A stretch of DNA of 64,000 nucleotides from Vicinamibacteria bacterium (GCA_019694155.1 JAIBCN010000142.1:1-64000); one strand, 5' to 3'; shown: positions 47,867 to 64,000, counted from the stretch's first letter. The notes: a model not told the origin generated them from the sequence alone. Numbers and translations: made by a program.

Positions 47867-48079
47867 CTACGCCGCAACTTCGACGTATTCGACCCGGCTG
47901 GAAGGAGGGGGGATCGGCGTGCCGTCCTCGCGCATACCCTTCAGATGCAGCTCAATGGCCTCGCGGATCTGGGATTCGACTTCTTTGATGGTCGCTCCCG
48001 TTGCCACGCATCCGGGAAGATCGGGAACATACGCGGAGAAATTGCTGCCAGCCTTCTCGATCACGATCGCATAGCGCAT
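47867..48079 (-). CDS. hicB: HicB family antitoxin
   Basis: A 70-residue HicB protein with the family core FSAYVPDLPGCVATGATIKE and IREAIELHLKGMREDG. It should neutralise the HicA toxin by covering its RNase surface. It starts 7 bases after the hicA stop, the normal toxin-first order for this type. Confidence 0.9.
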   Translation of the reverse strand: MRYAIVIEKAGSNFSAYVPDLPGCVATGATIKEVESQIREAIELHLKGMREDGTPIPPPSSRVEYVEVAA

Positions 48080-48086
48080 GGATTCC

Positions 48087-48275
48087 TCATTTCTTCACAC
48101 CGGACTGCTTCAGAATACTGTTCAGGGTGCCGGGCGCCAAGTCGTCGGCGGGTTTGCCGGGGACGGTGACCCGCCCCGGCTTCACGGGATGTTTGAACTG
48201 GCGGTGGCTGCCGCGTGTCGCCACGAGAAACCACCCATCCTCACTCAGCATGCGCAGCACGTCGCTGACCTTCAT
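48087..48275 (-). CDS. hicA: HicA family toxin (mRNA interferase)
   Basis: A 62-residue HicA with the double-stranded-RNA-binding-like fold and catalytic His in TRGSHRQFKHP, followed by VTVPGKPADDLAPGTLNSIL. This is a translation-dependent mRNA endonuclease. ATG 48275 is preferred; GTG 48278 lies directly before it. The gene is divergent from hsdR fragment B. Confidence 0.9.
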   Translation of the reverse strand: MKVSDVLRMLSEDGWFLVATRGSHRQFKHPVKPGRVTVPGKPADDLAPGTLNSILKQSGVKK

Positions 48276-48362
48276 CACGCCATTCCGGTCTTTCTTTGGG
48301 AGTAGCGAAAGGCTATGGCGGACACGTGCCGAGTCGGGTCCCTTTCGCCTACACTTTCCCCA

Positions 48363-49320
48363 ATGACCCCCGGGGCAGGGGTCTTACCCACATCTGCTCG
48401 AAGTTCATCACCCCCGCCCTCCTGAGCGCAGGCTGGGACCTCACCACCCAAGTCCGCGAAGAAGTCCGCTTCACCAAGGGCCGCATCATCGTCCGCGGCA
48501 AGCTGGTGGCCCAAGGCCAGGCTTTCGCGCTGCCCCGCGGCAAGGACAAGCGCGCCGACTACATCCTCTAGTACAACCCAACATCCCCATCGCCATCGTC
48601 GAGGCCAAGGACAACCTCCACCCGATGGGCGCAGGGCTCCAGCAGGGCCTCGACTACTCAGCCACCCTCGGCATCCCTTTCGTCTTCGCCTCCAATGGCG
48701 ACGGCTACGTCTTCCACGAAAACCCAAAAGCCGAAGTCCCCACCCCGCCAGGAGATACTCACGTCACCTCGGCCTAGCGCGAACGTCCGTTTCCGACCGC
48801 GAAACCACCGCCCTCCAGATCATCTGGCGCCGATCCCCGTGCTCATCGACCAGACCATTGGTGAACGACTTCCGCCCGTTCGGCCCCGCGATGGCCAAGC
48901 TATCCAACCAACGCGAAGACGATGCTTCCTTCCTGAGCCTGTACCGGGCCATCACCGGACCCGAGGACGCGCAGAAGATCTTCCGGGACTTCTCGCCGAC
49001 CTTCTTCGACCTCATCGTGGTGGACGAGTGCCACCGGGGGAGCGCCGCCTTTGACTCGGCGTGGCGCGAGCTCCTCGACTACTTCTCCTCGGACACGCAG
49101 ATCGGCATGACGGCCACCCCCAGGGAAACGAAGTACATCTCGAACATCAACTACTTCGGCGAGCCGACGTACTCCTACACGCTGAAGCAGGGGATCCGCG
49201 ACGGCTTCCTGGCCCCCTACAAGGTGATCAAGGTCCACCTCGACGTGGACACCGAGGGCTATCGGCCCAAACCGGGCGAGAAGGACATCACGGGCGCCGT
49301 CATCCCCGACCACCGGGGCC
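48363..49320 (+). pseudogene. hsdR: hsdR fragment B (type I restriction subunit, decayed)
   Basis: Recognisable HsdR pieces appear in more than one frame: ICSKFITPALLSAGWDLTTQ, then KDKRADYIL ended by a TAG where other copies have TAC, an N-terminal nuclease part with [11 protein letters not shown], a large internal deletion at a 62-bp insertion (48742-48803), then [21 protein letters not shown] and [12 protein letters not shown]. It lacks the true start and the 24-bp stop insertion of C and D. It ends exactly at repeat R2. Confidence 0.85.
48742..48803. repeat. Second insertion element in hsdR B (shared with C)
   Basis: A 62-bp stretch starting ACCCCGCCAGGAGATACTC and ending CCGACCGCGAA sits at the hsdR deletion point. 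Copy C has a 75-bp version at 50502-50576 that keeps a full hairpin; this copy has lost one half of it. Confidence 0.7.
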
Positions 49321-49369
49321 GTCATTGCGAAGGCCCATTCGTTCCGGCGTCGGCCTGAAGCAATCTCGC
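49321..49369. repeat. 49-bp interrupted palindrome, copy R2
   Basis: Nearly identical to R1 and R5 over all 49 bases. It ends hsdR fragment B and lies 31 bases before the DUF433 gene. Confidence 0.85.
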
Positions 49370-49400
49370 AGCGGAATGCGTACCGCCAACTGCTACTAGA

Positions 49401-49646
49401 ATGAGGGTCATGGCGCACCAGGCAACCGAACGGATCACGCATGACGCGGCAGTCATGGGCGGCCGCCCGTGCATTCGCGGAATGCGCGTGACGGTCGGCG
49501 CCATTGTGGGCTTGCTGGCGACCGGAAAGACAGAGGACGAGGTCCTCGCTGCCTATCCCTACATCGAGCGTGAAGACATCCATGCCGCCCTGGCCTTCGC
49601 AGCCTGGCGATCAGAAGAGGTCGACCTACCCCTCAAGGCCTCGTGA
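49401..49646 (+). CDS. DUF433 antitoxin-type protein
   Basis: An 81-residue DUF433 protein with the family core RITHDAAVMGGRPCIRGMRV and TGKTEDEVLAAYPYIEREDI, a helix-turn-helix-like fold found as antitoxin to DUF5615 toxins. Its TGA overlaps the GTG of the next gene. ATG 49410 is an alternative start. Confidence 0.9.
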   Translation: MRVMAHQATERITHDAAVMGGRPCIRGMRVTVGAIVGLLATGKTEDEVLAAYPYIEREDIHAALAFAAWRSEEVDLPLKAS

Positions 49647-50029
49647 GGGTTCTCGTTGACATGAACCTATCCCCGCTTTGGGTGGGGTTTCTGGTTGCTC
49701 ATGGCGTGGACGCGGTTCATTGGTCGGCCATCGGAAGCGCGAGGGCGCCCGATACCGCCCTCATGGATTGGGCACGCGAGAACGGCCATCTGGTGCTGAC
49801 GCACGACCTCGATTTCTCGGCTCTGATCGCCCTGGCGGGCCTGAGCGGGCCGAGTGTCGTGCATGTGCGCTCGCAGCGACTGCTTCCGGCTCAGATAGGC
49901 ACCACGGTGGTCGACGTGCTTCGGGTTCACCACGAGACGCTGGCATCCGGAGCGATCATCACCATCGACGACGCGGCGGCCCGGGTGCGGGTTCTGCCAG
50001 TTCGGCGAGTCAATCCAGACTCGAAATAG
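49643..50029 (+). CDS. DUF5615 PIN-like toxin-type protein
   Basis: A 128-residue DUF5615 protein with a PIN/Mut7-C-like fold: RVLVDMNLSPLWVGFLVAHG, then LMDWARENGHLVLTHDLDFS with the acidic metal residues. It is probably a ribonuclease toxin paired with the DUF433 protein (4-base GTGA overlap). A 29-bp palindrome lies 10 bases after its stop. Confidence 0.9.
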   Translation: MRVLVDMNLSPLWVGFLVAHGVDAVHWSAIGSARAPDTALMDWARENGHLVLTHDLDFSALIALAGLSGPSVVHVRSQRLLPAQIGTTVVDVLRVHHETLASGAIITIDDAAARVRVLPVRRVNPDSK

Positions 50030-50039
50030 TCAGACCAGG

Positions 50040-50068
50040 CAATTGGTCAGCAGTCTGCTGACCAATTG
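50040..50068. repeat. 29-bp near-perfect palindrome
   Basis: Arms of 14 bp, CAATTGGTCAGCAG and CTGCTGACCAATTG, flank a single T. It lies between the DUF5615 stop and hsdR fragment C. There is no T tail. It could be a bidirectional terminator, a dimeric-protein site or a recombination site. Confidence 0.7.
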
Positions 50069-50261
50069 GCCCCGCCCATCGCCTACACTTTCCCCAATGA
50101 CTCCCGGGGGCAAGGGTCCGCGCCCCATCTGCTCCAAGTTCATCACCCCCGCCCTCCTGAACGCCGGCTGGGATCTCACCACCCAGATCCGCGAGGAAGT
50201 CCGCTTCACCAAGGGCCGCATCATCGTCCGCGGCAAGCTGGTGGCCCAAGGCCAGGCTTTC

Positions 50262-50282
50262 GCGCTGCCCTAGGGGCAGCGC
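50262..50282. repeat. Hairpin insertion with in-frame TAG in hsdR C
   Basis: GCGCTGCCC-TAG-GGGCAGCGC, part of a 24-base insertion that keeps the frame but adds a stop. The same insertion with TAA is in copy D; copy B lacks it. Confidence 0.75.
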
Positions 50283-50501
50283 TCCGCGCTGACCCGCGGC
50301 AAGGACAAACGCGCCGACTGCATCCTCTACTACAAACCCAACATCCCCATCGCCATCGTCGAGGCCAAGGACAACCTCCACCCGATGGGCGCCGGCCTCC
50401 AGCAGGGCCTCGACCACTCAGCCACCCTCGGCATCCCATTCGTCTTCGCCACGAATGGCGACGGCTTGATCTCCCACGACAACACCCAGACCGAAGCCCC
50501 T

Positions 50502-50576
50502 ACCCCGCCAGGAGATACTCTCGTCACCCCGGCGAAAGCCGGGGCCTAGCGCGAACTGTCCGTTCCCGACCGCGAA
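50502..50576. repeat. Second insertion element in hsdR C with perfect hairpin
   Basis: A 75-bp version of the element in copy B. It includes CCCCGGC-GAAA-GCCGGGG (50527-50544), a perfect 7-bp stem with a GAAA tetraloop, a form common in short palindromic repeats. Confidence 0.7.
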
Positions 50577-50934
50577 GCTCATCCACTGTAGATCTTCCGG
50601 GACTTCTCACCGACCTTCTTTGACCTCATCGTGGTGGACGAGTGCCACCGGGGCAGCGCCGCCGAAGACTCGGCCTGGCGCGAGATCCTCGACTACTTCT
50701 CCTCGGCCACGCAGATCGGCATGACGGCCACCCCCAAGGAAACGAAGTACATCTCGAACATCAACGACTTCGGCGAGCCGACGTACTCCTACACGCTGAA
50801 GCAGGGGATCCTCGACGGCTTCCTGGCCCCCTACAAGGTGATCAAGGTCCACCTCGACGTCGACATCGAGGGCTATCGGCCCGCCCCGCGCGAGAAGGAC
50901 ATCACGGGCGCGGTCATCCCCGACCACCGGAGCC

Positions 50935-50983
50935 GTCATTGCGAAGGCCCATTCGTTCTTGCGCCGGCCTGAAGCAGTCCCGC
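50935..50983. repeat. 49-bp interrupted palindrome, copy R3
   Basis: The most diverged 49-bp copy (TTCTTGCGCC in the centre and CAGTCCCGC at the end). It ends hsdR fragment C and precedes the HigB-HigA pair. Confidence 0.8.
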
Positions 50984-51090
50984 GGCGGAATGCGGCCTCC
51001 ATTGCCTTGGGCGCCTCCTGCACGACCAGCAGAAGGCGGAACCCTTCGAGTTGCCCGCGATAGTCTTACGAATAGGTGTAATCTCTGGAT

Positions 51091-51411
51091 GTGAAGGAGA
51101 TTCGCTTTCTCGGTTCATCGCGGCAGGAGATCTCGTTGTTCCCGGCCACGGCTCGATCGAGGGTGGGACATGAGCTCTACCTGATCCAGGTTGGCGAGGA
51201 TCCGGGTGATTTCAAGCCAATGCCGACGGTCGGCAAGGGCGTTTTCGAGATCCGGATTCGCGACCTGGCGGGCGCCTTTCGGGTGCTCTATGTCGCGAAG
51301 TTCGCCTCCTGGGTGTACGTCCTTCACGCGTTCCAGAAGAAGTCTCAAAAGACAGCCCAGCAGGCGCTGCGCGTCGCTACGCATCGCTACGGGCTGATAG
51401 AGGAGAAGTAA
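51091..51411 (+). CDS. higB: HigB-like / phage Gp49-like toxin
   Basis: A 106-residue RelE/ParE-superfamily toxin: KGVFEIRIRDLAGAFRVLYV, then WVYVLHAFQKKSQKTAQQAL, the typical Gp49-like end. It is expected to cut mRNA at the ribosome. GTG 51091 is the start. The antitoxin gene starts 2 bases after its stop, the reversed toxin-first order of hig loci. Confidence 0.9.
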   Translation: MKEIRFLGSSRQEISLFPATARSRVGHELYLIQVGEDPGDFKPMPTVGKGVFEIRIRDLAGAFRVLYVAKFASWVYVLHAFQKKSQKTAQQALRVATHRYGLIEEK

Positions 51412-51413
51412 CT

Positions 51414-51680
51414 ATGGCCAGACAGAACGTCTTTCTCGACCTCGGGTTTCCCAAGCACGAGGCCGCGGTGATGTTGATGCGCTGCGACCTGGCTCAGGAG
51501 ATTCGGCAGTGGCTGAAGAAGCGCCATCTCTCCCAGGCCGCCGGCGCTGAGATCCTGGGCATCAGCGCGCCGCGAATCAACGAGATCGTCAAGAACCGCG
51601 TGGAGAAAGTCTCCGTGGACTACCTCCTCGGCCTCTGCGCGAAGGCGGGGATCTCGGTGTCCGTGAAGCTCGCGGCGTAG
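51414..51680 (+). CDS. higA: HigA-like XRE antitoxin
   Basis: An 88-residue protein with a helix-turn-helix (RHLSQAAGAEILGISAPRIN, then EIVKNRVEKVSVDYLL). It is expected to bind the HigB-like toxin and its promoter. The ATG lies 2 bases after the toxin stop, with GGAG just before. Confidence 0.92.
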   Translation: MARQNVFLDLGFPKHEAAVMLMRCDLAQEIRQWLKKRHLSQAAGAEILGISAPRINEIVKNRVEKVSVDYLLGLCAKAGISVSVKLAA

Positions 51681-51708: not shown

Positions 51709-53001
51709 ATGCACCGGGCCTCGACTACTGGCTCCCTTTCTGATCTCAGCCGCATGAGCCGGCTCTCCCAGTCCTGCCTCCGCCTCCGTCCGCCCCTGCG
51801 TACGGCCTGGAGTTACGACAATGGACTCGGCGCTCCCAGCCCCTTGCTGTCTCCGTCGACCGCTTACGTCGTGTCGCTTGGCCCCCGTAAATCCCTGGAC
51901 CATGGGGCGGTGGCCCTGGATTCGACCACCGGTAAGAAGCTGTGGTCTCACAAGCCGAAGGTGCACCGCCGATCGAGTCCAGCGTTTGTACTCCCGGACC
52001 GAGTCGGGGTAGTCGATACGTCAGCTGGCGAGGCGGAGGCCGAACAACCTGATGAGACCCTCATCTTTGATGCGCAAACAGGGCGACCGGTTCGTCGCTA
52101 CCCGTGGGCAGGAAGTCTGGTTGTTGGCGACATGTGCGTGGCGGACGCCAGCAGTGTCGCGTCCCTGACGAGTGGAGAAAAACTCTGGGAGATTGGGACA
52201 GAGCCCGGGGAACGGCTGTGCAGGCCCTTTTCGCGAGACCGGGTCTGGGCAAGTGAAGACCTCCTTGTCTGGGGGCAGAAAGGCGGTGCGGTCCGTTGTG
52301 TTCGAACAAGGACTGGTGAGTTGGTTTGGGAGACCTCGGTAGCAGACATCTGGTTGCGGGGTGCGACGGCAAGTCAGAAGATTCCCGGCGAAGTCAGTGG
52401 ACGGATCCAGTGTTTTGGCAGGGTCGTCACATTCCCGACCGCGACCCACGTCGTCGGCGTTTCCCTGGATACGGGCAAGCGACTGTGGGCGGTGGAGGCG
52501 GTTCCCCTGCGAGGGGGCGGCCGTTGCGGGGACCGCCTTTATGTGAGCTACTGTGCGTGGATCGATCCTCAGTCTGGCAAGTACCACGGCGAGCCCGCAG
52601 GAAGGCTCGTCGGCCCCGCGAAGCTCGAACGACCCAGGGAATGGAAGTCGAAGAAGGACACATTCTCCGGCGACTTTCTGGTTTCGGAGACGCATATCTT
52701 CGGAACGAGCACCGCTGGCACGCTTGAGGCCTGGGACCGGGAAACGGGCAAGCACGAGTGGCATGAGAAGCCTGAAGGGGCCAAGGGATATGTCGAGTTG
52801 GCTCCGATGGTGGCTGCATATGGGCGGCTCTACTACGTTGACTACTCGTTCCGGACCTACTGCTATGAGGAGCAGGGCCCGGGCGAGCGCTCACCGAAGG
52901 CGGCGATCGCCTGGCCGCCCAGACCAGCACCGAGCCTCGCGACAAGTTCGGAACGCCGATCCTCACGAAGCCCCGACTTGGACAGTCCTCATTCAGAGTG
53001 A
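51709..53001 (+). CDS. PQQ-like beta-propeller protein, 3' end replaced
   Basis: A 430-codon frame with quinoprotein-type propeller repeats (GAVALDSTTGKKLWSHKPK; TLIFDAQTGRPVRRYPW; GTLEAWDRETGKHEWHEK). After about residue 398 (EEQGPGERS) the frame runs into the duplicated HNH sequence and the last 30 or so residues are out-of-frame HNH, so the native C-terminus is lost. No signal peptide is visible. It is probably a broken gene; a soluble propeller could still form. Confidence 0.6.
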   Translation: MHRASTTGSLSDLSRMSRLSQSCLRLRPPLRTAWSYDNGLGAPSPLLSPSTAYVVSLGPRKSLDHGAVALDSTTGKKLWSHKPKVHRRSSPAFVLPDRVGVVDTSAGEAEAEQPDETLIFDAQTGRPVRRYPWAGSLVVGDMCVADASSVASLTSGEKLWEIGTEPGERLCRPFSRDRVWASEDLLVWGQKGGAVRCVRTRTGELVWETSVADIWLRGATASQKIPGEVSGRIQCFGRVVTFPTATHVVGVSLDTGKRLWAVEAVPLRGGGRCGDRLYVSYCAWIDPQSGKYHGEPAGRLVGPAKLERPREWKSKKDTFSGDFLVSETHIFGTSTAGTLEAWDRETGKHEWHEKPEGAKGYVELAPMVAAYGRLYYVDYSFRTYCYEEQGPGERSPKAAIAWPPRPAPSLATSSERRSSRSPDLDSPHSE

Positions 53002-53348
53002 TGGTGACGGACGCGTACAAGCGGCGTTGCGCGATCACCGGGGAGAGCACGCTGCTGGCGCTCGAGGCGGCGCACATCGTTCCCTACTCGGACGAGCAGG
53101 GAAGTCACGACGTGCGAAACGGGCTCCTGCTTCGGGCCGACTTCCACCGCCTCTTCGACGCCGGACTCGTCGGCGTGAATCAGGACCTGCGAATCAAGGT
53201 GAGTCCGAAGATCCGCGAGACCTGGTTCAACGGCAAGGCGTACTACCGCCTAAACGACCAGCCGCTGACCGTCGTGCCGGATCTCGTCGCGAATCGGCCG
53301 GATCCCGACCGCCTGAAGTGGCACTTTGAGAATCGCTTCCAGGCGTGA
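52904..53348 (+). pseudogene. Duplicate of the HNH endonuclease 3' end
   Basis: A 445-bp copy without length change relative to 46485-46929. It encodes the HNH core (RCAITGE, ALEAAHIVPYSDEQG, FHRLFDAG) and ends at the same stop. It lacks the N-terminal recognition domain. A GTG at 52998 could start a 116-residue HNH-only protein. The left joint lies inside the PQQ-like gene. Confidence 0.8.
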
Positions 53349-53921: not shown

Positions 53922-54015
53922 GTCATTGCGAAGGCCCATTCGTTTCGGCGCCGGCCGCGCGCAGCCTGGCCTTTGGCCAGGCGAAGCCTCCCCTCGGGGG
54001 ATGAAGCAATCCCGC
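53922..54015. repeat. Palindrome repeat R4, expanded by an internal hairpin
   Basis: The ends match the 49-bp family (GTCATTGCGAAGGCC; GAAGCAATCCCGC), but about 45 extra bases lie inside, including GCCTGGCC-TTT-GGCCAGGC (53964-53982). It precedes hsdR fragment D, where the other copies follow an hsdR fragment. Confidence 0.75.
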
Positions 54016-54068
54016 GGCCCATCGCCTACACTTTCCCCAATGACTCCCGGGGGCAAGGGTCCGCAGAA

Positions 54069-55783
54069 ATGAACAAGAGAGACCTCAACGAACGAGACAT
54101 CTGCTCCAAGTTCATCACCCCCGCCATCCTCAAGGCGGGCTGGGACCTGACCACCCAGATCCGCGAGGAGGTCCGCTTCACCAAGGGCCGCATCATCGTC
54201 CGCGGCAAGCTTGTGGCCCAAGGCCAGGCTTTCGCGCTGCCCTAAGGGCAGCGCTTCGCGCTGACCCGCGGCAAGGACAAGCGCGCCGACTACATCCTCT
54301 ACTACAAACCCAACATCCCCATCGCCATCGTCGAGGCCAAGGACAACCTCCACCCGATGGGCGCAGGCCTCCAGCAGGGCCTCGACTACTCAGCCACCCT
54401 CGGCATCCCTTTCGTCTTCGCCTCCAACGGCGACGGCTTCGTCTTCCACGACAAGACCCTCAAGGAAGGCGAAGGCGACATCGAGAAAACGCTCACCCTC
54501 GACGAGTTCCCAAGCCCCACGCAGCTCTGGGAGAAGTACCGCGCCTTCAAGGGCCTCGGCCCCGAGGAAGAGCGCATCGTCCTGCAGGACTACCACGACG
54601 ACCCTCCCGACAAGCAACCCCGCTACTACCAGACGAGCGCCATCAACGCGACGGTCGAAGCCATCGCCAAGGGCCAGGACCGCAACCTCCTGGTCATGGC
54701 CACCGGCACCGGCAAGACCTACACGGCCTTCCAGATCATCTGGCGCCTGTGGAAAGCCGGAGTGAAGAAGCGGATCCTGTATCTCGCCGACCGGAACGTG
54801 CTCATCGACCAGACGATGGTGAACGACTTCCGCCCGTTCGGGCCCGCGATGGCCAAGCTATCCACCAACGCGAAGACCATCGAGAAGGACGACGGCAGCA
54901 AGGTGGAGCTCATCACCGCCCTCGGCAAGCACCACAGCATCGACAAGTCCTTCGAGATCTACCTGAGCCTCTACCAGGCCATCACCGGACCCGAGGACGC
55001 GCAGAAGATCTTCCGGGACTTCTCGCCGACCTTCTTCGACCTCATCGTGGTGGACGAGTGCCACCGGGGCAGCGCCGCCGAAGACTCGCCATGGCGCGAG
55101 ATCCTCGACTACTTCTCCTCGGCCACGCAGATCGGCATGACGGCCACACCCAAGGAAACGAAGTACATCTCGAACATCAACTACTTCGGCGAGCCGACGT
55201 ACTCCTACACGCTGAAGCAGGGGATCCGCGACGGTTTCCTGGCCCCGTACAAGGTGATCAAGGTCCACCTCGACGTCGACATCGACGGTTATCGGCCCAA
55301 ACCGGGCGAGAAGGACATCACGGGTGCCGTCATCCCCGACCAGCAGTACAACCAGAAGGACTTCGACGCGAACCTCGTCATCGACGAGCGGACGAAGCGG
55401 GTGGCGCGGTGGGTGTCCGACTTCCTCAAGCAGAGCGGCGACCGGTTCCAGAAGACCATCATCTTCTGCGTGGATACCGATCACGCGTCTCGGCTGCGGC
55501 AAGCGGTCGCCAATGAGAACGCCGACCTCGTGAAGCAGAACCCGAAGTACGTCATGAGGATCACCGGCGACGACAGCGAAGGCGTCGATCAGCTCTCAAA
55601 CTTCATCGACCCGGAGTCGAGATTTCCGGTGATCGTGACCACGTCGCGGCTGCTGTCCACCGGCGTCGATGCCCAGACCTGCAAGCTCATCGTGCTCGAC
55701 CGGGAAGTGGGCTCGAGGACCGAGTTCAAGCAGATCGTCGGCCGGGGCACGCGCGTCCATGAGGACTCACGGCACCCACCGAC
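54069..55783 (+). pseudogene. hsdR: hsdR fragment D (longest copy, truncated and interrupted)
   Basis: From ATG 54069 (MNKRDLNERDICSKFITPAI) the HsdR frame runs to a TAA at 54243 within a 24-base insertion, then continues in the same frame: the PD-ExK-type nuclease part ([16 protein letters not shown]), Walker [30 protein letters not shown] and motif [14 protein letters not shown]. At that point the C-terminal domain is cut by repeat R5. A 10-codon upstream frame (54040) overlaps the start as ATGA. No hsdM or hsdS is present, so this is not an active system as seen. Confidence 0.88.
54234..54254. repeat. Hairpin insertion with in-frame TAA in hsdR D
   Basis: GCGCTGCCCT-A-AGGGCAGCGC forms a near-perfect 21-base palindrome carrying TAA at 54243-54245, part of a frame-preserving 24-base insertion also present in copy C (there with TAG). 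Confidence 0.75.
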
Positions 55784-55832
55784 GTCATTGCGAAGGCCCA
55801 TTCGTTCCGGCGTCGGCCTGAAGCAATCTCGC
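55784..55832. repeat. 49-bp interrupted palindrome, copy R5
   Basis: Near-identical to R1 and R2. It truncates hsdR fragment D directly after the helicase motif VI codons and lies 32 bases from the end of the DUF3553 gene. Confidence 0.85.
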
Positions 55833-55864
55833 AGCGAAAGGCAGTCCCCGCGTTCCGGTGGTGC

Positions 55865-56707
55865 TCATCGCGCGACGCACCACATGAAGGACTGCACGTC
55901 GATCATGTCCTTCGGCTTGAGATCCTCTAGGTCCTCGAACAACTGAGCCGCGAGGCGAAGAAGGCACTGGTAAGTGAGCCAATTGGGCTCGGGTCGGTAG
56001 TTCAGCTCGACGCGGCACACGTCGGCCATCAGCTTGGCTATGTTCGGCTTCAGAAAGAGGTGCTCCTCCGGCATCATGAGGAACGGGAAGTAGGTGGCGA
56101 TCGTCCATTTCGCCGCTCCGATCTCCGACAGCGCGTCCGCGAAGCCGGTGAACCTCTCCTCGAATGGCGTGTTTCCGTGAAGGAGCAGGTAGAGCGACGC
56201 CGAGAAGCGCGGCTGGGCCTCGGCTCCCTTCAAGCCGTTGCTGAGCTTCATCTGCTCATGGCTGAAGACCAGATTCGTCTTGCTGATGACGGCGCGGGCC
56301 AGCTTGCACACCGCGGCATGCTCCCCTGACTTCTCGAGCGCGCGGAACTCCTTCGCCGACAGGGAAGTCACCAGCAGGTCGCGTGCTTCGAGTTTGTACG
56401 TCCTCTCCTGGTCAAGGAAGGCGGGATCGCGAAAGCCCCTTGGGAACTGCTCGAGAAAGACCTTCTTGTAGTCCGCAATGTTCCCCCGTGGAGCCGCGGA
56501 CTTGCGCTTTCCCGCTCGGGGCATGAAGAAGGGCTTCTCCGCCTCTGCTCCAGTCACCTCGACCAGGAACCGAGGCGTAAGAAGCATTTCGCCTACGTTG
56601 GCGAAATACACCGTCAGGCGGTCCGCTGGTCCCACAGCGCGGATTGACCCCTGACCCCATTCCGGCCTCACCGTGTGCCTTACCCTGCCGCCGACCATCC
56701 AAGTCAT
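55865..56707 (-). CDS. DUF3553-like protein of unknown function
   Basis: A 280-residue protein. The N terminus matches the small DUF3553 fold ([33 protein letters not shown]). The remainder is helical and unrecognised ([41 protein letters not shown]). It lies 70 bases after the SbcC gene on the same strand, so it probably ends the resection operon. It may be an accessory DNA-binding or regulatory subunit. Confidence 0.65.
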
Positions 56708-56777
56708 TTGTCGTCCTTCATGTGCCAGTAGCAGAGACGTCTACACGCCTTGGGAAGCCACCGCCGCGGAGTGCGCT

Positions 56778-59700
56778 TCAAGAGGGGCTGGCGTTCTTGA
56801 GCACCTCGGCAGTCGAAAACCCTTCGTGTTTCGTAACGATAATCTGCTGCGCGAACTCGTCGCGCAGTTCCGGGATGTGCGTGATGATGCCGACCATGCG
56901 GCCGCCTGCCTGCAGACTCTGGATCGTCTCTGAGACCAAACTCAGGGTGTCGTGATCCAGGGTTCCAAAGCCCTCATCGATGAAGAGACTGTCCAGATTC
57001 ACCGCGCCTGCGGCTCGCTGTACTTGATCGCTCAACTCGAGAGCCAGGGAGAGTGAGGTCAGGAACGTCTCGCCGCCGCTCAGAGTGTCGCTGATCCTTG
57101 TCTCGCCACCGTTGTCGTTATCGACGACCAGAATATTGTCGTCTTCGAACCTCAGGGAGTATCGCTCCTCGGTCAGCGACAATAGCCGGGTTGATGCTCC
57201 ATTCACTAGCTCCGTGAAGGCCTCCTCGAGAACATAGGCTTGGAACTTGTCGCTGCGAAGGTCGGCGGCGAGCTGACCATGGACGCGGAGCGCCAGCTCA
57301 TCTTCCTGGAGCTGATCTCTCATCGCCTTGGATCGACCGATGCGAACCTTCATCCGCTCGACCTGCTCCTCAAGTGTCTTCTGTTCTCCGTATTGCTTCT
57401 CCGTCTCCTTGCTCAGGTCTTTGGCGAGCCTCTCAGCCTCGGCCAGTTGCTCGTTCGAAACCCGAACGTCCCCAAGCTCGGATTGGAGCGCGGTGGCTCG
57501 CTGGTCGACTGCGTGGACGTCGTGATCGTACTTGCGAATGCTCTCGGTGAGAGTGGTCGTGGTTGTGTCGTCGAGGAATGAGTCTCTCGCCGTCTGCTCG
57601 TCCGGGAACCCAGCCCGAGAGATCTCATCATCGCGGCGCCTAACTCGTGCGGCTGACTCCTCGCGAGCCTTGCTGGCGGCATCGATGAGTAGCTTCGACT
57701 CTGATTGCGCCTTCATCAGGTCGCTTTGGGCAGCTGCAGCGCTCGTGGAGGCTCTCTTAAAGGCGCTTTCGAGCGCTTGGATCTGCTTTGCCAGACCTGC
57801 GGCCTCGGCCGCAGGGTCTGAGGAGTGAGTCACGGCAACGATCTGGGCTCGGAGAGCCGCAAGAGCCTGCCGATCTGCGTCCAGGTCCTTCGCCAGGTCC
57901 GTCAGCGTCGCTTGCTTATCGGCGAGCCTTTCCCGGCGACTCGTTTCCTCCGCCTTCGCCTTCTCAAGTGCCTGCTCCGCAGTTTCAAGCTGCTGCTTGG
58001 CTCGCTCGTGTTCCTTGCGGGCCGCCGCCAGAGATGCCGCTTGCGATTCCACCCAGACTTCCAGCGTGCCTCCCAGGCCTTTGACGTGGTCGCCAAGTGC
58101 CGCACGGATCTCGGCCTCCAGCCGCGCGACTCCTGCTGTAAGGAGCGAGTAGTGGCTGCTGAGTTCTGCCAAGTGTTCACGCGCGACTTTGGCGCTGGCA
58201 AGCTCGGTCGTCAGCTGGTCCTCTGCGGCACGTGCCGCGGCCTCGACTTCGCGTTGCTCTTTCTTTGCGGCGCTCAACGCTCCCTTTGCGTTCTCGACGT
58301 CCGCATTGAGGATGGCTGACGGCGGCGAGCTCACGGTCTGCTCGCATACCGGGCATAGTTGCCCCCGCTCGAGGGATGTTCGAAGCTGGTTCGCGGCATC
58401 GAGCTCGTGTGCGTGGTGGAGCGCGGCTTCTGCGTGCTCAACCCTCTGGCGTGCCTTGTCCGCCGCGTCTCTCGCCCCCGTTACATCGGCCCGCAGTGCC
58501 GCGATTCTGACTTCGAGCTTTGCGAGACTCTCCTTCTTCGTCCCTAGGTCCCGCTGGGAATTCTGGGCTCCTTGCCGGCTCCCCCCGAGGCTGACCGCTC
58601 GGCTGCGAACGCTTTCGATAAGCACGTCAAGGGAGGGGTTGTAGGACGCCTTGCGCAAAGCGGCCTCCGCTACCTCGGCGGCAGCCTGCTGCTCAAGTTG
58701 TAGTTGTCGTGCTGCGGCGATTGCCTTCGCGAGACTGGCAAGGTCCGTGGCTGCCGCCTTGGCTTGGTCGTCTCCGCGAGCGATTGTGCCTTCGAGGCGC
58801 CGGGCCTCCGGCAACCTGACAACAACCTCATGGAGCCGCGCGCTTTGCTCGCGGAGAGCTGGAATGGCCTCGGCCGCCTTCTCGGCTGCCTCCAAGAGGG
58901 CCGATTGCTCTTTGTAGGCTCGGTCGGCCCTGCCCTGCGCCCCCTTCGCCCGTTCTGCAATCTCCGAGGCGCTAGCCGCGCCCTGAAGGGCGCGGGTGGC
59001 TTCTTCAAGGAAGGGTGCCACGCGTGACGCTAGCCTCGCTGCATCGATGCGGCTCCGAAGCCTGCCAATCTCCGCGCCCCGCAACTGAAGCGCTTCTCGT
59101 TCCAATTCGGCCTTTCGAAGCTCGGTCGTCTTGGCACATAGGGCTCTGAGGTCGCTGGCGGACCGTTGGGCCTCGTCGAGCCTCTTTCGCAACTCGTCGA
59201 GTTGGCCTGCGGTCTTGGTGACTCGGGCTTCGAGGTCGGTAAGGGCACCTTCGCTGACTCCTCGGTACTCCTCTTCAAGGACCTTCCGCGCCGACTCGAT
59301 TGCGAGCTTCTTTGCGGTTGCGACCTGTTGACTGTGGATGCGCATTCTTTCGTAAACGTCTAGGCGCAGGAGGGAGCGCAGCATGCTCCGCCGTGCCTTT
59401 GGGTCGGCTTTCAGAAACTCGGCGAACTCCCCCTGCGGCAGAATGACCGCCTGCTTGAAGGCTGTCACATCCAGGCCCAACAGCCGCACGATGGCCTCTT
59501 CCGCGGGCCGGACGGCATCGGCAACGGTGATGGTGAAGTCATGACCGTCGTGTTTCTCGAGCTGCACCGTGTGGCCCCCGCTTCGCCGAAGCGCTCGAAC
59601 GATGCGATAACGGTCGGGGCCGACGTTGAAGTCCAGCCGGACGGCGAGTCGATCGCGTGAGGCGGCGATCATTTCGGAGCGGTCCTTGACGCTGACTCTG

Positions 59701-59861
59701 GGCACCTCGCCGTAGAGGGCGAGGATCATGGCGTCGAGGATCGTGCTTTTTCCCGCCCCAGTGGGTCCCGAGATCGCAAAGCGATCAAGCGCGCTCAGGT
59801 CGAGGTCCTGCCGGTCCTTGAAGCAAGCAAGCCCGTCGATACTCAGATAGACAGGGCGCAT
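56778..59861 (-). CDS. sbcC: SbcC/Rad50-type ATPase
   Basis: A 1027-residue SMC-like protein. Walker A GPTGAGKSTILDA lies near residue 32, then long coiled coils on both sides of a zinc hook CPVCEQ near residue 503, and the C-terminal signature LSGGETFLTSLSLALEL with Walker B LFIDEGFGTLD. It forms a complex with SbcD that opens and trims DNA ends and hairpins. It starts 3 bases after the sbcD stop. Confidence 0.95.
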   Translation of the reverse strand: MRPVYLSIDGLACFKDRQDLDLSALDRFAISGPTGAGKSTILDAMILALYGEVPRVSVKDRSEMIAASRDRLAVRLDFNVGPDRYRIVRALRRSGGHTVQLEKHDGHDFTITVADAVRPAEEAIVRLLGLDVTAFKQAVILPQGEFAEFLKADPKARRSMLRSLLRLDVYERMRIHSQQVATAKKLAIESARKVLEEEYRGVSEGALTDLEARVTKTAGQLDELRKRLDEAQRSASDLRALCAKTTELRKAELEREALQLRGAEIGRLRSRIDAARLASRVAPFLEEATRALQGAASASEIAERAKGAQGRADRAYKEQSALLEAAEKAAEAIPALREQSARLHEVVVRLPEARRLEGTIARGDDQAKAAATDLASLAKAIAAARQLQLEQQAAAEVAEAALRKASYNPSLDVLIESVRSRAVSLGGSRQGAQNSQRDLGTKKESLAKLEVRIAALRADVTGARDAADKARQRVEHAEAALHHAHELDAANQLRTSLERGQLCPVCEQTVSSPPSAILNADVENAKGALSAAKKEQREVEAAARAAEDQLTTELASAKVAREHLAELSSHYSLLTAGVARLEAEIRAALGDHVKGLGGTLEVWVESQAASLAAARKEHERAKQQLETAEQALEKAKAEETSRRERLADKQATLTDLAKDLDADRQALAALRAQIVAVTHSSDPAAEAAGLAKQIQALESAFKRASTSAAAAQSDLMKAQSESKLLIDAASKAREESAARVRRRDDEISRAGFPDEQTARDSFLDDTTTTTLTESIRKYDHDVHAVDQRATALQSELGDVRVSNEQLAEAERLAKDLSKETEKQYGEQKTLEEQVERMKVRIGRSKAMRDQLQEDELALRVHGQLAADLRSDKFQAYVLEEAFTELVNGASTRLLSLTEERYSLRFEDDNILVVDNDNGGETRISDTLSGGETFLTSLSLALELSDQVQRAAGAVNLDSLFIDEGFGTLDHDTLSLVSETIQSLQAGGRMVGIITHIPELRDEFAQQIIVTKHEGFSTAEVLKNASPS

Positions 59862-59864
59862 CGC

Positions 59865-61025
59865 TCAGTCCTCCATCCCTGAGGCGACTGCGTAAATCCT
59901 ATCGAACGCGTCAACTACATTGGTCTCAGGTGGTAGCTGATGCTCTCGCAGGTGAAAGGCCCCATACTGTTCCACGGGTGAGGCGCCCGCGTCGGGGCGC
60001 GCGGTGTGGGTCTCCTCCACCTCTGGAAGCTCCGACCTGACTACGAGCGCGTTAGGCAGGATTTCTCTGACTTTTCGATTCAGATCGGGGTCTTTCTCTG
60101 CAAGGGGCACAGAGACGCGTAGCCAGCACGAGTGGCGGTGCTTCTCTGCGAGCGCCTCGAGTTCCGGAAGGGTGGCTCGAAGATCGAGCAGAGGGAAGCC
60201 TCCCTCATAAGGAACGTGGCGGACCTTGGCTGGCTTGCCCGCCACGGCCGTCACGACGACAAACGTCTTCTCCTGGCCGGTCTCGCCGAAGTCCATCTGA
60301 AGTGGCGACCCAGCGTAGTAGGCAAGCAGCGTTCCCCCGACCTTCTGTGGCTTGTGGATGTGGCCCAGCGCGATGTACGCCGCGGTCGTCGGAAGAGTCT
60401 GCGCGGTCGCAGCCCAGTCTTCGCCGATGTGGACTCGGCGCTCCGACTCGCCGAAGGCGGCACCCTCGAGGTGCGTATGCGCCATGAACAGGTTGACCGC
60501 GTCCTTTCGGAATGGTTTTGAGAGGTTCTGAACTGCTGCTTGGAACATCCGGGCGTACCTGCTGTGTGCGCTTCCCTCGTCGGCCGCCATCTGAAGGGCA
60601 GAGACCCACACACCGGGTGAGGCAAATGGAAGTGCCGCGACCACGGCCTTCTCGCCGCCGCGTGTAGTGATCGTCTGAGCCCCGCCGTTCTCAGCGCTCC
60701 GAGGCCGGCCAACGATATGGACGTTCGCGTACTCGGCAAGGAGCGCCCTCGCATCGAGACGACCAGGGTCGTCATGGTTCCCAGCGATCAGGACCATATG
60801 GGTGCCCGCCCGGCCCACGCGGACAAAGAAGCGATTCACCAACCGCTCTGCCTCAGCGGGAGGGTTCCGGCCGTCGAAGATATCGCCGGTGTGGAGCACC
60901 AGATCCACTTCCTCTGACTCGATAAAACGGCCTAGATGGTCGAGGACCGCCTCCATTTCATCGAGACGCTCGATGCCCTTCCATCGACGACCCACATGCC
61001 AGTCGCTGGTGTGGACAATCTTCAT
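59865..61025 (-). CDS. sbcD: SbcD/Mre11-type nuclease
   Basis: A 386-residue calcineurin-like phosphoesterase. The metal motifs are HTSDWHVG (residues 4-11), LHTGDIFDG, IAGNHDDPG, MAHTHLEG and LGHIHKPQ, in Mre11 order. It is the nuclease partner of SbcC. GGAGG lies 5 bases before the ATG, within 9 bases of the HerA-like stop. Confidence 0.95.
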   Translation of the reverse strand: MKIVHTSDWHVGRRWKGIERLDEMEAVLDHLGRFIESEEVDLVLHTGDIFDGRNPPAEAERLVNRFFVRVGRAGTHMVLIAGNHDDPGRLDARALLAEYANVHIVGRPRSAENGGAQTITTRGGEKAVVAALPFASPGVWVSALQMAADEGSAHSRYARMFQAAVQNLSKPFRKDAVNLFMAHTHLEGAAFGESERRVHIGEDWAATAQTLPTTAAYIALGHIHKPQKVGGTLLAYYAGSPLQMDFGETGQEKTFVVVTAVAGKPAKVRHVPYEGGFPLLDLRATLPELEALAEKHRHSCWLRVSVPLAEKDPDLNRKVREILPNALVVRSELPEVEETHTARPDAGASPVEQYGAFHLREHQLPPETNVVDAFDRIYAVASGMED

Positions 61026-61034
61026 GTTGCCTCC

Positions 61035-62708
61035 CTAGGTACGTGCAAACGGGTCGTCTGCCGTGCTGTCCTCGCGCACTTCGCTTTGCCGCGTCGCCCA
61101 GGAGGGGAAGGGGAACTTCAGGAGAACTGGTGTAGGAATCTCGGGCTGCGTGACGATCATGCTTCCGGGCGAAAGCATCGTGGCGCGCTGCCTTGCTACG
61201 CGAGTGAGGAACCCGTATTCGCCTCTCTCCGCCTCGGCCGCGTCAAGGCGGCCGACCACCTTCATGGCCGCATTGGCCACTATGCGCCGCTCAACCTCAC
61301 TTGCGGTCTGCTGCGCGCCGAACAGGCAGACCCCCAGCGATCGGCCACGTTCGGCGATGTCGAGGAGGACATCCTGGATCGGGCTCCAACCGGAGCGGGG
61401 CGCGTATTTGTTGAGCTCATCAAGAACAACGAACACGAGCGGCCGAGCCGTCCCCTGTGTCTCCTTCTCGCGCATCATCCTCTTCAGCAGCACGCCGACT
61501 ACGAACATCTGCGCGATGTCGTGGAGGGTGTGGATGTCGACGACGGTGACCTGGTTGGCCTGCCAGTCGATACGGTGTTGAGCTGCCTCCTTGTCCCCGC
61601 GAACAAGATGGCCCATGTGCTGAGCCGCTGCGTGCAAACGGCGTCGAAAGGCGTCGAGCGTGCCGGTCGCGGCGTTGGACACCATATGGTCCAGGGTTTC
61701 GGAATCGAGCATCTCGACAAGGTCGTCGAAGGATTCAAGGCGAGTGCCGTGAACCTCAAGACCGGGGTCCTTAGGATCGCCCACTTTGGCGGCGCGCTCC
61801 AGCTCTCTCTCGATGCGGTAGATGAGAAACGAAATCTGGGATCGAGTGTCCTGGGCATCGGCGAAGGCAAAACGAAGGAGGTTGTCGCGAGCGAACTCGC
61901 GCAGGGTCCAGATATAAGGATGCACCCCTTCGTGCCGGCTGCCCACCTCCGGTACCACTACCTTCCCCTGCCGCCGCGCTGGAGCAAAGAACCCGACGCT
62001 GGCGAACGGGCCCGCCTCGAGTCCGAGGGTCTTGTACTCCTCAGTCAGCGTCGCCGAAATGTGCGTGTTCGGCTTGTCGAGCCAGAGCAGATCCTCACCC
62101 TTGACGTTGAAGATGAGCGCACGGGCATTGGTGGCATCGGCTCCGAGTGCATCGGAGTGGAAGAGCGAATAGAGCAGGAAGGTCGCGTAGCTCGTCTTGG
62201 TGGCCACCCCAGAAACGCCGCTGATCGAGACGTGGGCGCCCCGCGTGCCATCGAGAAAGTCGAGATTGGCAAAGACGGTTTCGCCGCTTCGGGTATGGCC
62301 GATCGCCACCTTCTTCTCCATTCGATCGATGAAGAGGGCGCGCTGAAACTCTTCGCCGCGCACAATCCGGACTGCGTTACCAGGATGGGGAGGGACGAAG
62401 ATCTCGGGATCCACTCGGGTGACCTGGATGTGGGCGGCGTAGGACACCTCAACCGGCAGCGTGCCCTCGGCGGCGCGGAATGCATCCGAGTCGAACTGTC
62501 CGCCCTCATACCGCTTTCGGACGATGTCTACGATGCCGAAGAAGCTCACGACCTGTCCATCGGGAAGGGTGACGTCAGCGACAACCAAGTCGTCGAGTTC
62601 AAGGACCGCGCCTTCGGCGACACCAACCCAAAATTCGAGGGGACCCGCATCTTCGGAGCCGAGGACGACACCAGCTGCGGCGTTGTTGGGAAAAGTGGAC
62701 TCAGCCAC
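61035..62708 (-). CDS. HerA-like DNA translocase/helicase
   Basis: A 557-residue ATPase of the HerA/FtsK-like DUF87 group. An N-terminal HAS-type barrel leads into the P-loop region SISGVSGVATKTSYATFLLY and a Walker B-like VFVVLDELNKYAP, then GVCLFGAQQTASEV. The P-loop has Thr where Gly usually precedes Lys, which I recall as a variant kept in a bacterial subgroup. HerA forms a hexamer that drives NurA nuclease. GTG 62708 overlaps the NurA stop by 8 bases and has GGAGG 7 bases upstream. Confidence 0.88.
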   Translation of the reverse strand: MAESTFPNNAAAGVVLGSEDAGPLEFWVGVAEGAVLELDDLVVADVTLPDGQVVSFFGIVDIVRKRYEGGQFDSDAFRAAEGTLPVEVSYAAHIQVTRVDPEIFVPPHPGNAVRIVRGEEFQRALFIDRMEKKVAIGHTRSGETVFANLDFLDGTRGAHVSISGVSGVATKTSYATFLLYSLFHSDALGADATNARALIFNVKGEDLLWLDKPNTHISATLTEEYKTLGLEAGPFASVGFFAPARRQGKVVVPEVGSRHEGVHPYIWTLREFARDNLLRFAFADAQDTRSQISFLIYRIERELERAAKVGDPKDPGLEVHGTRLESFDDLVEMLDSETLDHMVSNAATGTLDAFRRRLHAAAQHMGHLVRGDKEAAQHRIDWQANQVTVVDIHTLHDIAQMFVVGVLLKRMMREKETQGTARPLVFVVLDELNKYAPRSGWSPIQDVLLDIAERGRSLGVCLFGAQQTASEVERRIVANAAMKVVGRLDAAEAERGEYGFLTRVARQRATMLSPGSMIVTQPEIPTPVLLKFPFPSWATRQSEVREDSTADDPFART

Positions 62709-63717
62709 GGATGGCCTCCTTCGTCACAAGCACTTCGATCCAGCGCCTGAACAGTCGCGCGTCGCCAAGCGCGGCGCGGAGTTTCTGTTCCAAGGCGCCA
62801 ATTGGGAGCAGGTTCTGAGGCGATCGCGGGTCCCGGGCTCGCTTGGGTGCCGTGCGCGGTAGCCAGGCCGTGGCCGAATCGGCCAGCCTTCGCGCGGTTT
62901 CAACCCCAACGTTTGCCGAGAGCTCGAGTCGCACGATGCCATGGAGGTCTGTTTCGCCTGGGCCGGGATGGGCAAGGCGCTGAAACCATGAGTATCTGGA
63001 GAACCCTGCGCCCGCTGACTGAATGGAAAAAATAGGAGTGCGCGCACCTGCCGGCAGCCCAGCAAGCAGGGGGATGAACCTGGCCGGCAAATACAGTTGA
63101 TGGATGCGCTTGATGTAGCCGAGGGCGAGGCCCTTCCGCGCAGGTTCGAAGCTGAGAGGACCATCCACGATCGTGAGCGTGTCGTCGCGACAGGTGTCCC
63201 GTGCGAGCGTGGCCTCAGCGAGCCTCATCGACTTCTGGATGTGTCTCAGGGGCCCGTCGAGTTCGATGTTGGGGGTGCTCTCCGCGCCGTAGACGAGATT
63301 CTTGCGGACATGGACAGGACCGGGGAGGCTCTCGCCAGCACCTAGAACCGCGATTCGGGATATTCGTAGTTCACCGAATGAGGCTGCGGAGTTTTCGACA
63401 TCGACGGCGCCCACACCGAAACTGCCGAATCCTCCGTAGATCAGCTGGTCGGCTTTTCGGGCATTGATCCGCACCTCCAGCCGGCGCACTCCGTCGATGA
63501 AGACAACTCGCGGGGGCAAGGACGTCTCTCCCTGGGGCGTGATCGCCGCCCACGCGGCCTCCTTCGTTTCGACTTGGTGGTCCACCTGCTCGTTAGGCTC
63601 GTCGTCTGAGGGCGCCAAGGGAGTCTGGTCGCCATAGTCGACCTCCCACGGGTCGACTCGAACCCGGAAGTCGCCGAACGCTGGCGGCGAGCTAGGCAAT
63701 CCCTGTGTCTCCAGCAT
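62701..63717 (-). CDS. NurA-like nuclease
   Basis: A 338-residue protein with NurA-domain marks: an early VVFIDGVRRLEVRI with the metal Asp (about residue 71), a second acidic strand LTIVDGPLSF (about 182), and LGYIKRIHQLYLP with basic residues. NurA is a 5'-to-3' nuclease that works with HerA in DNA end resection. Assignment rests on fold-like motifs and on its place directly before the HerA-like gene. Upstream (63718-64000) no gene is seen. Confidence 0.8.
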   Translation of the reverse strand: MLETQGLPSSPPAFGDFRVRVDPWEVDYGDQTPLAPSDDEPNEQVDHQVETKEAAWAAITPQGETSLPPRVVFIDGVRRLEVRINARKADQLIYGGFGSFGVGAVDVENSAASFGELRISRIAVLGAGESLPGPVHVRKNLVYGAESTPNIELDGPLRHIQKSMRLAEATLARDTCRDDTLTIVDGPLSFEPARKGLALGYIKRIHQLYLPARFIPLLAGLPAGARTPIFSIQSAGAGFSRYSWFQRLAHPGPGETDLHGIVRLELSANVGVETARRLADSATAWLPRTAPKRARDPRSPQNLLPIGALEQKLRAALGDARLFRRWIEVLVTKEAIRG

Positions 63718-64000
63718 CTTGGCACCGGCTTCCGCGGGAACAAGGCCATTGCCGGTGCGCGGCAGGGTATCGAATGTGTTCGGATTGCAGATCGCCCCTG
63801 ATCATGCAGTGCAAGATACAGCACCCCGGAGTCGGTCGAGGTCCACACGTTCTCCCGCCGAAGAAAAAAGTCTACGGAGACCCCGTCAAGCCCCCATCCC
63901 TCGGGCGCCTCCTACGATCGAAGCCAAGCAACAACACGCTTGAGTGCCAATGCACATGTCAAGAACGGGCGCTCATGGTCATCGCGGCGTGGCGCGCGTC

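Follow-up and report, generated by a model that had tools for sequence, protein, structure and literature searches.

What is a run of five minus-strand genes, four of them for DNA end processing, doing at the edge of this 64,000-nucleotide stretch of bacterial DNA (the window, part of contig G000:C184 in an assembly of 257 contigs from a member of the Acidobacteriota)? The original prediction was of archaeal-type end-resection machinery in a bacterium, with a defence or repair role, gained by transfer and working with a DUF3553 partner. We consider it highly probable that the locus is instead a bacterial NurA-HerA-SbcD-SbcC operon, intact and serving to process double-strand DNA ends, that this copy probably arrived by transfer between bacteria, apparently along with an adjoining Shango system, and that the DUF3553 gene lies beside it by chance.

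Layout of the locus

All five open reading frames were found on the minus strand at the predicted positions. The first, nurA (62701..63717), encodes a bacterial-type NurA nuclease of 338 residues and overlaps herA (61035..62708; a DNA translocase ATPase of 557 residues with a GTG start) by 8 bases. A gap of 9 bases separates herA from sbcD (59865..61025; an Mre11-type nuclease of 386 residues matching TIGR00619 at E 4.5e-54 and PF00149), and 3 bases separate sbcD from sbcC (56778..59861; a Rad50-type ATPase of 1027 residues matching TIGR00618 at E 4e-81 and PF13558). The four genes follow one another on a single strand, an arrangement that recurs in other species, and a motif check of all four found none decayed. 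The predicted spacing and completeness of the set hold. The DUF3553 gene (55865..56707, minus strand; 280 residues, a UvrD-like Tudor domain plus a helical domain) starts 70 bases after the end of sbcC, and because of this gap we place it outside the tight run. It is convergent with a truncated hsdR gene (54357..55946, plus strand; NF046051 positions 77-518 of 768), the third and longest of three such fragments. At the other end of the operon, the window closes on the 3' end of sngC (63959..64000, minus strand), the last gene of a Shango system that continues to position 69730 of the contig.

Identity of the operon proteins

The 338-residue protein gave no family match in Pfam, NCBIfam or PADLOC, and the Pfam NurA model (PF09376) had no match anywhere in the host genome at E 0.001. 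Since PF09376 does give matches in seven control genomes, it appears to be insensitive to this branch of NurA, a limit of the model that is outweighed by profile, fold and residue evidence. In a search with a profile built from ten homologues, D. radiodurans NurA (7f6d_H) came up at E 1.6e-55, the match spanning profile positions 9-322, and TM1739 of T. maritima came up at E 2e-15. The AlphaFold2 model (pLDDT 87.4) has the RNase H-like NurA fold, and the best Foldseek match in the PDB was again to D. radiodurans (7f6d_G, 7.8e-20), with further matches to 1zup (3.5e-15), the NurA-like TdpAB defence complex (8wfd, 5e-6) and archaeal NurA (2ygk, 2e-5). Whether this protein has a NurA fold had been set beforehand as a test that could refute the prediction, and both the profile and the structure search bear the fold out. 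The homologue alignment shows conservation of D75, E168 (in MRLAE), D185 (in VDGPL) and K203, and by that alignment D75, E168 and D185 would be the catalytic acidic residues. The protein is a true NurA of the bacterial (Deinococcus) type.

HerA matches its D. radiodurans counterpart (PDB 7f6d_B) at E 1e-202 and is up to 71% identical to orthologues among the matches listed; both of its Walker motifs are intact (A, GVSGVATKT; B, VLDELNK). Of the acidic residues by which Deinococcus HerA binds NurA (D78, E80 and D81), our reading of the alignment finds the first alone kept, as D75. With one of three contact residues kept, the HerA-NurA interface here probably differs in detail from that of Deinococcus. 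SbcD retains all five phosphoesterase motifs (DWH, GDIFD, GNHD, MAHTH and GHIH), and SbcC is likewise intact (Walker A GPTGAGKS, zinc hook CPVC, signature LSGGE and Walker B DEGFGTLD). Pfam returned nothing for HerA, NCBIfam and PADLOC returned weak matches, and annotated records name the NurA and HerA proteins 'hypothetical protein' or 'ATP-binding protein'. The linked arrangement is thus easily overlooked.

These relationships bear directly on where the genes came from. Thermophilic archaea keep these four functions linked as well (PMC5448004, PMC4663267), a point in favour of direct transfer of archaeal genes into the host bacterium. The closest HerA relatives, however, are other bacterial proteins (60-71% identity among the matches listed), published Thermus HerA is merely 27% identical to archaeal HerA (PMC5448004), and Foldseek places the NurA model far closer to Deinococcus NurA than to archaeal NurA. 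On the bacterial kinship of NurA and HerA in profile, fold and identity we reject a direct archaeal origin, to which we assign almost no probability, and with it goes the description of the machinery as archaeal-type.

Proposed mechanism

In vitro, D. radiodurans NurA-HerA resects ends, with double-stranded DNA pumped by the HerA hexamer into a dimer of NurA, where the 5' strand is degraded (PMC9960219), and herA or nurA mutants of Thermus and Deinococcus are affected in repair or recombination (PMC5448004). Gene identities, intact catalytic motifs, the NurA fold, conserved linkage and the genome's only detected SbcC are established here; we infer the biochemical steps, and the hand-off between the operon proteins, from characterised homologues. 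In the working model, the SbcC-SbcD (Rad50-Mre11) complex would first find and clip blocked or hairpin ends. A HerA hexamer would then load on the opened duplex and pump it into the NurA dimer, which would degrade the 5' strand during translocation and leave a 3' single strand for RecA. The operon SbcC is the sole SbcC_Walker_B match in the host genome. The operon may nevertheless not be the main route of resection, as AddAB/RecB-type nuclease domains are also encoded there. Bacterial carriers of the operon, including cultured Micromonospora, could serve as models for the hand-off of DNA ends from Mre11-Rad50 to HerA-NurA.

The four-gene arrangement is ordinary in bacteria

A scan of genomes with the HerA alignment returned at least 511 relatives, and the best 80 of these were turned into loci. 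All four genes occur together in 41 of the 43 well-flanked loci within this best 80, 31 of them in the order HerA-SbcD-SbcC-NurA (mostly Actinomycetota) and 10 in the order NurA-HerA-SbcD-SbcC. The phyla represented include Acidobacteriota, Chloroflexota and Actinomycetota, among others. Within the window's class the distribution is patchy (NurA in 23 of 193 genomes), and nurA adjoins herA in 20 inspected loci, where SbcD and SbcC are nearly always present as far as the contig permits. The four-gene operon is also found on a Nostocales conjugative plasmid and on a Streptomyces linear plasmid, and for Oceanithermus profundus a nurA-hepA-sbcD-sbcC set, in which the herA homologue is followed downstream by sbcD and sbcC, had already been published (PMC5448004). 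Recurrence across phyla puts the gene order far beyond chance, and the 41 of 43 loci together with the 20 same-class nurA-herA pairs argue that the linkage is selected. Given the genome loci, the class relatives, the plasmids and the Oceanithermus precedent, the arrangement is ordinary for bacteria, neither archaeal-type nor rare.

Two loci met in these searches deserve separate mention. The Streptomyces plasmid (NZ_CP134205.1; L196:1-16444) carries HerA-SbcD-SbcC-NurA near TIGR02680, TIGR02678 and DUF2397 genes, which we take to be Wadjet components. A contig filed as viral (IMGVR_UViG_3300030606_000448; L011:4983-5177) holds a 44-residue nurA remnant with 73% identity to the window's copy and a type III restriction gene close to it; the remnant was the sole nurA trace in the viral contigs searched.

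Origin of this copy

Acquisition by transfer, as originally predicted, is supported by composition, by the patchy distribution, by the plasmid-borne copies and by phylogeny. The four operon genes have a GC3 of 0.71-0.75 and the Shango genes 0.71-0.74, as against 0.82-0.90 for the nine other window genes measured and about 0.90 for the hsdR fragments. This common atypical GC3 suggests that Shango and the operon were acquired jointly, in an event distinct from the one that brought the restriction and toxin debris. The low-GC3 segment may extend further, since an Fe-S gene beyond Shango also stands at 0.75. The HerA tree contains at least three lineages within the window's class, two of them within one family, which makes transfer between bacteria plausible, and this copy was probably gained in that way. 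A possible empty site lies between katG and the Fe-S gene, which border this region and are about 7-9 kb apart in two relatives from the same order compared with about 33 kb here; the comparison is no more than suggestive because katG is in the opposite orientation.

The 'decayed restriction/toxin island' that had been noted nearby is real as debris, in the form of three truncated hsdR copies and toxin-antitoxin genes, but its GC3 sets it apart from the operon. The three partial type I hsdR copies (48296-49379, 50043-50993 and 53973-55842) share matching blocks that are mostly 80-95% identical; their internal deletions differ, and each ends at the same 60-base repeat (GTCATTGCGAAGGCCCATTCG...). 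A 21-base element occurs in five exact copies on the plus strand (45541, 49321, 50935, 53922 and 55784), all within the 45.5-55.8 kb part of the window and none outside it, and is presumably a member of the widespread GTCATTGCGA...GAAGCAATC dispersed repeats. Among the hsdR fragments there are toxin-antitoxin-like pairs at 47867-48278 (HicB-like plus a small neighbouring ORF), 49401-50029 (DUF433/DUF5615) and 51091-51680 (Gp49-like/HTH_37), as well as an HNH_2 endonuclease gene at 52998-53348.

DUF3553: a neighbour, not a partner

UvrD/PcrA and DinX carry DUF3553 as a Tudor-like domain (PMC6511836). The match to PF12073 (E 7e-7) covers residues 6-46 only of the 280-residue protein, which also gave weak profile matches to UvrD/PcrA and best fold matches to 7egt and 6yi2. 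The rest forms a helical domain, conserved among homologues, for which no match was confident. A reading of this domain as an Ogg-type DNA glycosylase is not claimed, the matches being weak (E about 0.1).

According to the five-gene reading, the DUF3553 protein would be a dedicated subunit whose Tudor domain tethers resection to RNA polymerase. The UvrD/PcrA type of the domain is in keeping with such a role, and the gene lies on the operon's strand with no terminator-like site found in the 70 bases after sbcC. Its occurrence elsewhere speaks against the idea: a DUF3553 gene stands beside sbcC in none of the 80 genome loci (the best 80 of at least 511 HerA relatives) and in none of 20 class relatives, about 100 operon loci in all. 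Conversely, homologues of the protein are encoded in 18 of 193 class genomes, and the 17 neighbourhoods inspected contain no nurA, herA, sbcD or sbcC, so that these are orphan genes. One genome (G170) encodes both a homologue and the operon, on separate contigs, and a 54% identical homologue from the same genus stands without operon genes. The GC3 of the gene (0.81) also departs from that of the operon. Because it adjoins sbcC in none of these other loci, an outcome named beforehand as one that would refute the partnership, we reject the DUF3553 protein as an operon partner, and the predicted five-gene order with it; a dedicated fifth subunit strikes us as very improbable, and the gene is a chance neighbour of the four-gene operon.

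A Shango system adjoins the operon

A complete Shango system (G000:C184:63959-69730; L021:9760-15531) sits just past the window's end, which is why it was absent from the original prediction. Genes for SngA (TerB), SngB (ATPase) and SngC (helicase) lie in tandem, with PADLOC matches of 5.2e-89, 8.2e-179 and 2.4e-263, respectively, and with the Pfam domains TerB_N/TerB/TerB_C, BrxC_BrxD and DEAD. The end of sngC is 241 bases upstream of nurA on the same strand, and a terminator-like hairpin with a T-tract lies between them (63874..63897, minus strand; L021 9698-9675), identified as a consensus match only.

This proximity raises the possibility of one composite anti-phage system, in which a nuclease-less Shango would sense or remodel phage DNA and the four-gene module would degrade it. 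One atypical GC3 range (0.71-0.75) covers all seven genes, and end-processing genes accompany Shango at two other Acidobacteriota loci: sbcD-sbcC downstream of it in L144 (1963-7468), and an SbcD-like gene paired with an ATPase gene immediately upstream in L143 (1875-5844). At three further Shango loci (L198:8636-11974, L199:1653-4991 and L201:3491-6922) a protein of about 1100 residues is encoded divergently from sngA; judged from its N-terminal sequence only, it is probably a RecB-like nuclease-helicase. The association fails as a rule, however. No Shango gene was found in the 80 operon loci (the best 80 of at least 511) or in the relatives' operon loci, and NurA-HerA is absent from all other Shango loci inspected (five Acidobacteriota, five more and eight on plasmids). 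At the eight plasmid loci no gene of the four lies nearby, loci L145-L147 and L198-L202 lack any SbcCD or SbcD-like pair, and a search of 10 other Shango genomes, a set without a positive control, turned up no HerA of this type. In addition, Shango is active on its own in P. aeruginosa PAO1 (PMC10250203), and the terminator-like site separates sngC from nurA. We therefore regard a composite system as unlikely. A broader proposal, that Shango in some Acidobacteriota, lacking any recognised nuclease, would use adjacent end-processing modules as effectors (NurA-HerA-SbcCD here, SbcCD or other nucleases elsewhere), seems to us equally doubtful. Our literature search found no report of a composite defence of Shango with a neighbouring end-processing module, and the Shango neighbour offers a secondary lead that can be put to the test.

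Defence or repair?

The original prediction left the role of the operon between defence and repair. A PADLOC and Pfam scan of 101 flanking genes from 27 operon loci, run without a matched control set, found mostly metabolic families, as for a repair operon. Defence matches were few, the notable ones being to the GajA, GajB and Cas7g models with a single member for each, and this count speaks against the operon as a general defence-island module. The metabolic flanks and the genome's only detected SbcC favour repair. In view of its composition and the complete Shango next door, this particular copy may have a defence role.

Comparison with known systems

The D. radiodurans NurA-HerA complex (PDB 7f6d, PMC9960219) belongs to the same families over their full length and shares the NurA fold, the Walker motifs and the nuclease residues. 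It differs in the acidic HerA interface residues described above, and SbcC is unmentioned in that report. Shango SngABC (PMC10250203) is a separate three-gene system, a complete copy of which adjoins the operon within the same compositional segment; at other Shango loci inspected there is no NurA or HerA, and an SbcCD or SbcD-like pair occurs in two. The archaeal herA-nurA-mre11-rad50 operon (Constantinesco 2002/2004, as cited in PMC5448004 and PMC4663267) unites the same four functions, but with an archaeal-type NurA of another dimer form (PMC9960219) and with distant sequences. Two further parallels are bacterial. In Oceanithermus profundus (PMC5448004) sbcD and sbcC likewise lie downstream of the herA homologue, although this bacterium belongs to a different phylum from the window's and no Shango neighbour is mentioned. 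Actinomycetota loci (L053, L058, L061 and others) carry the same four genes in tandem, with nurA last rather than first. Linked NurA-HerA-SbcD-SbcC is thus common in bacteria and not an archaeal oddity.
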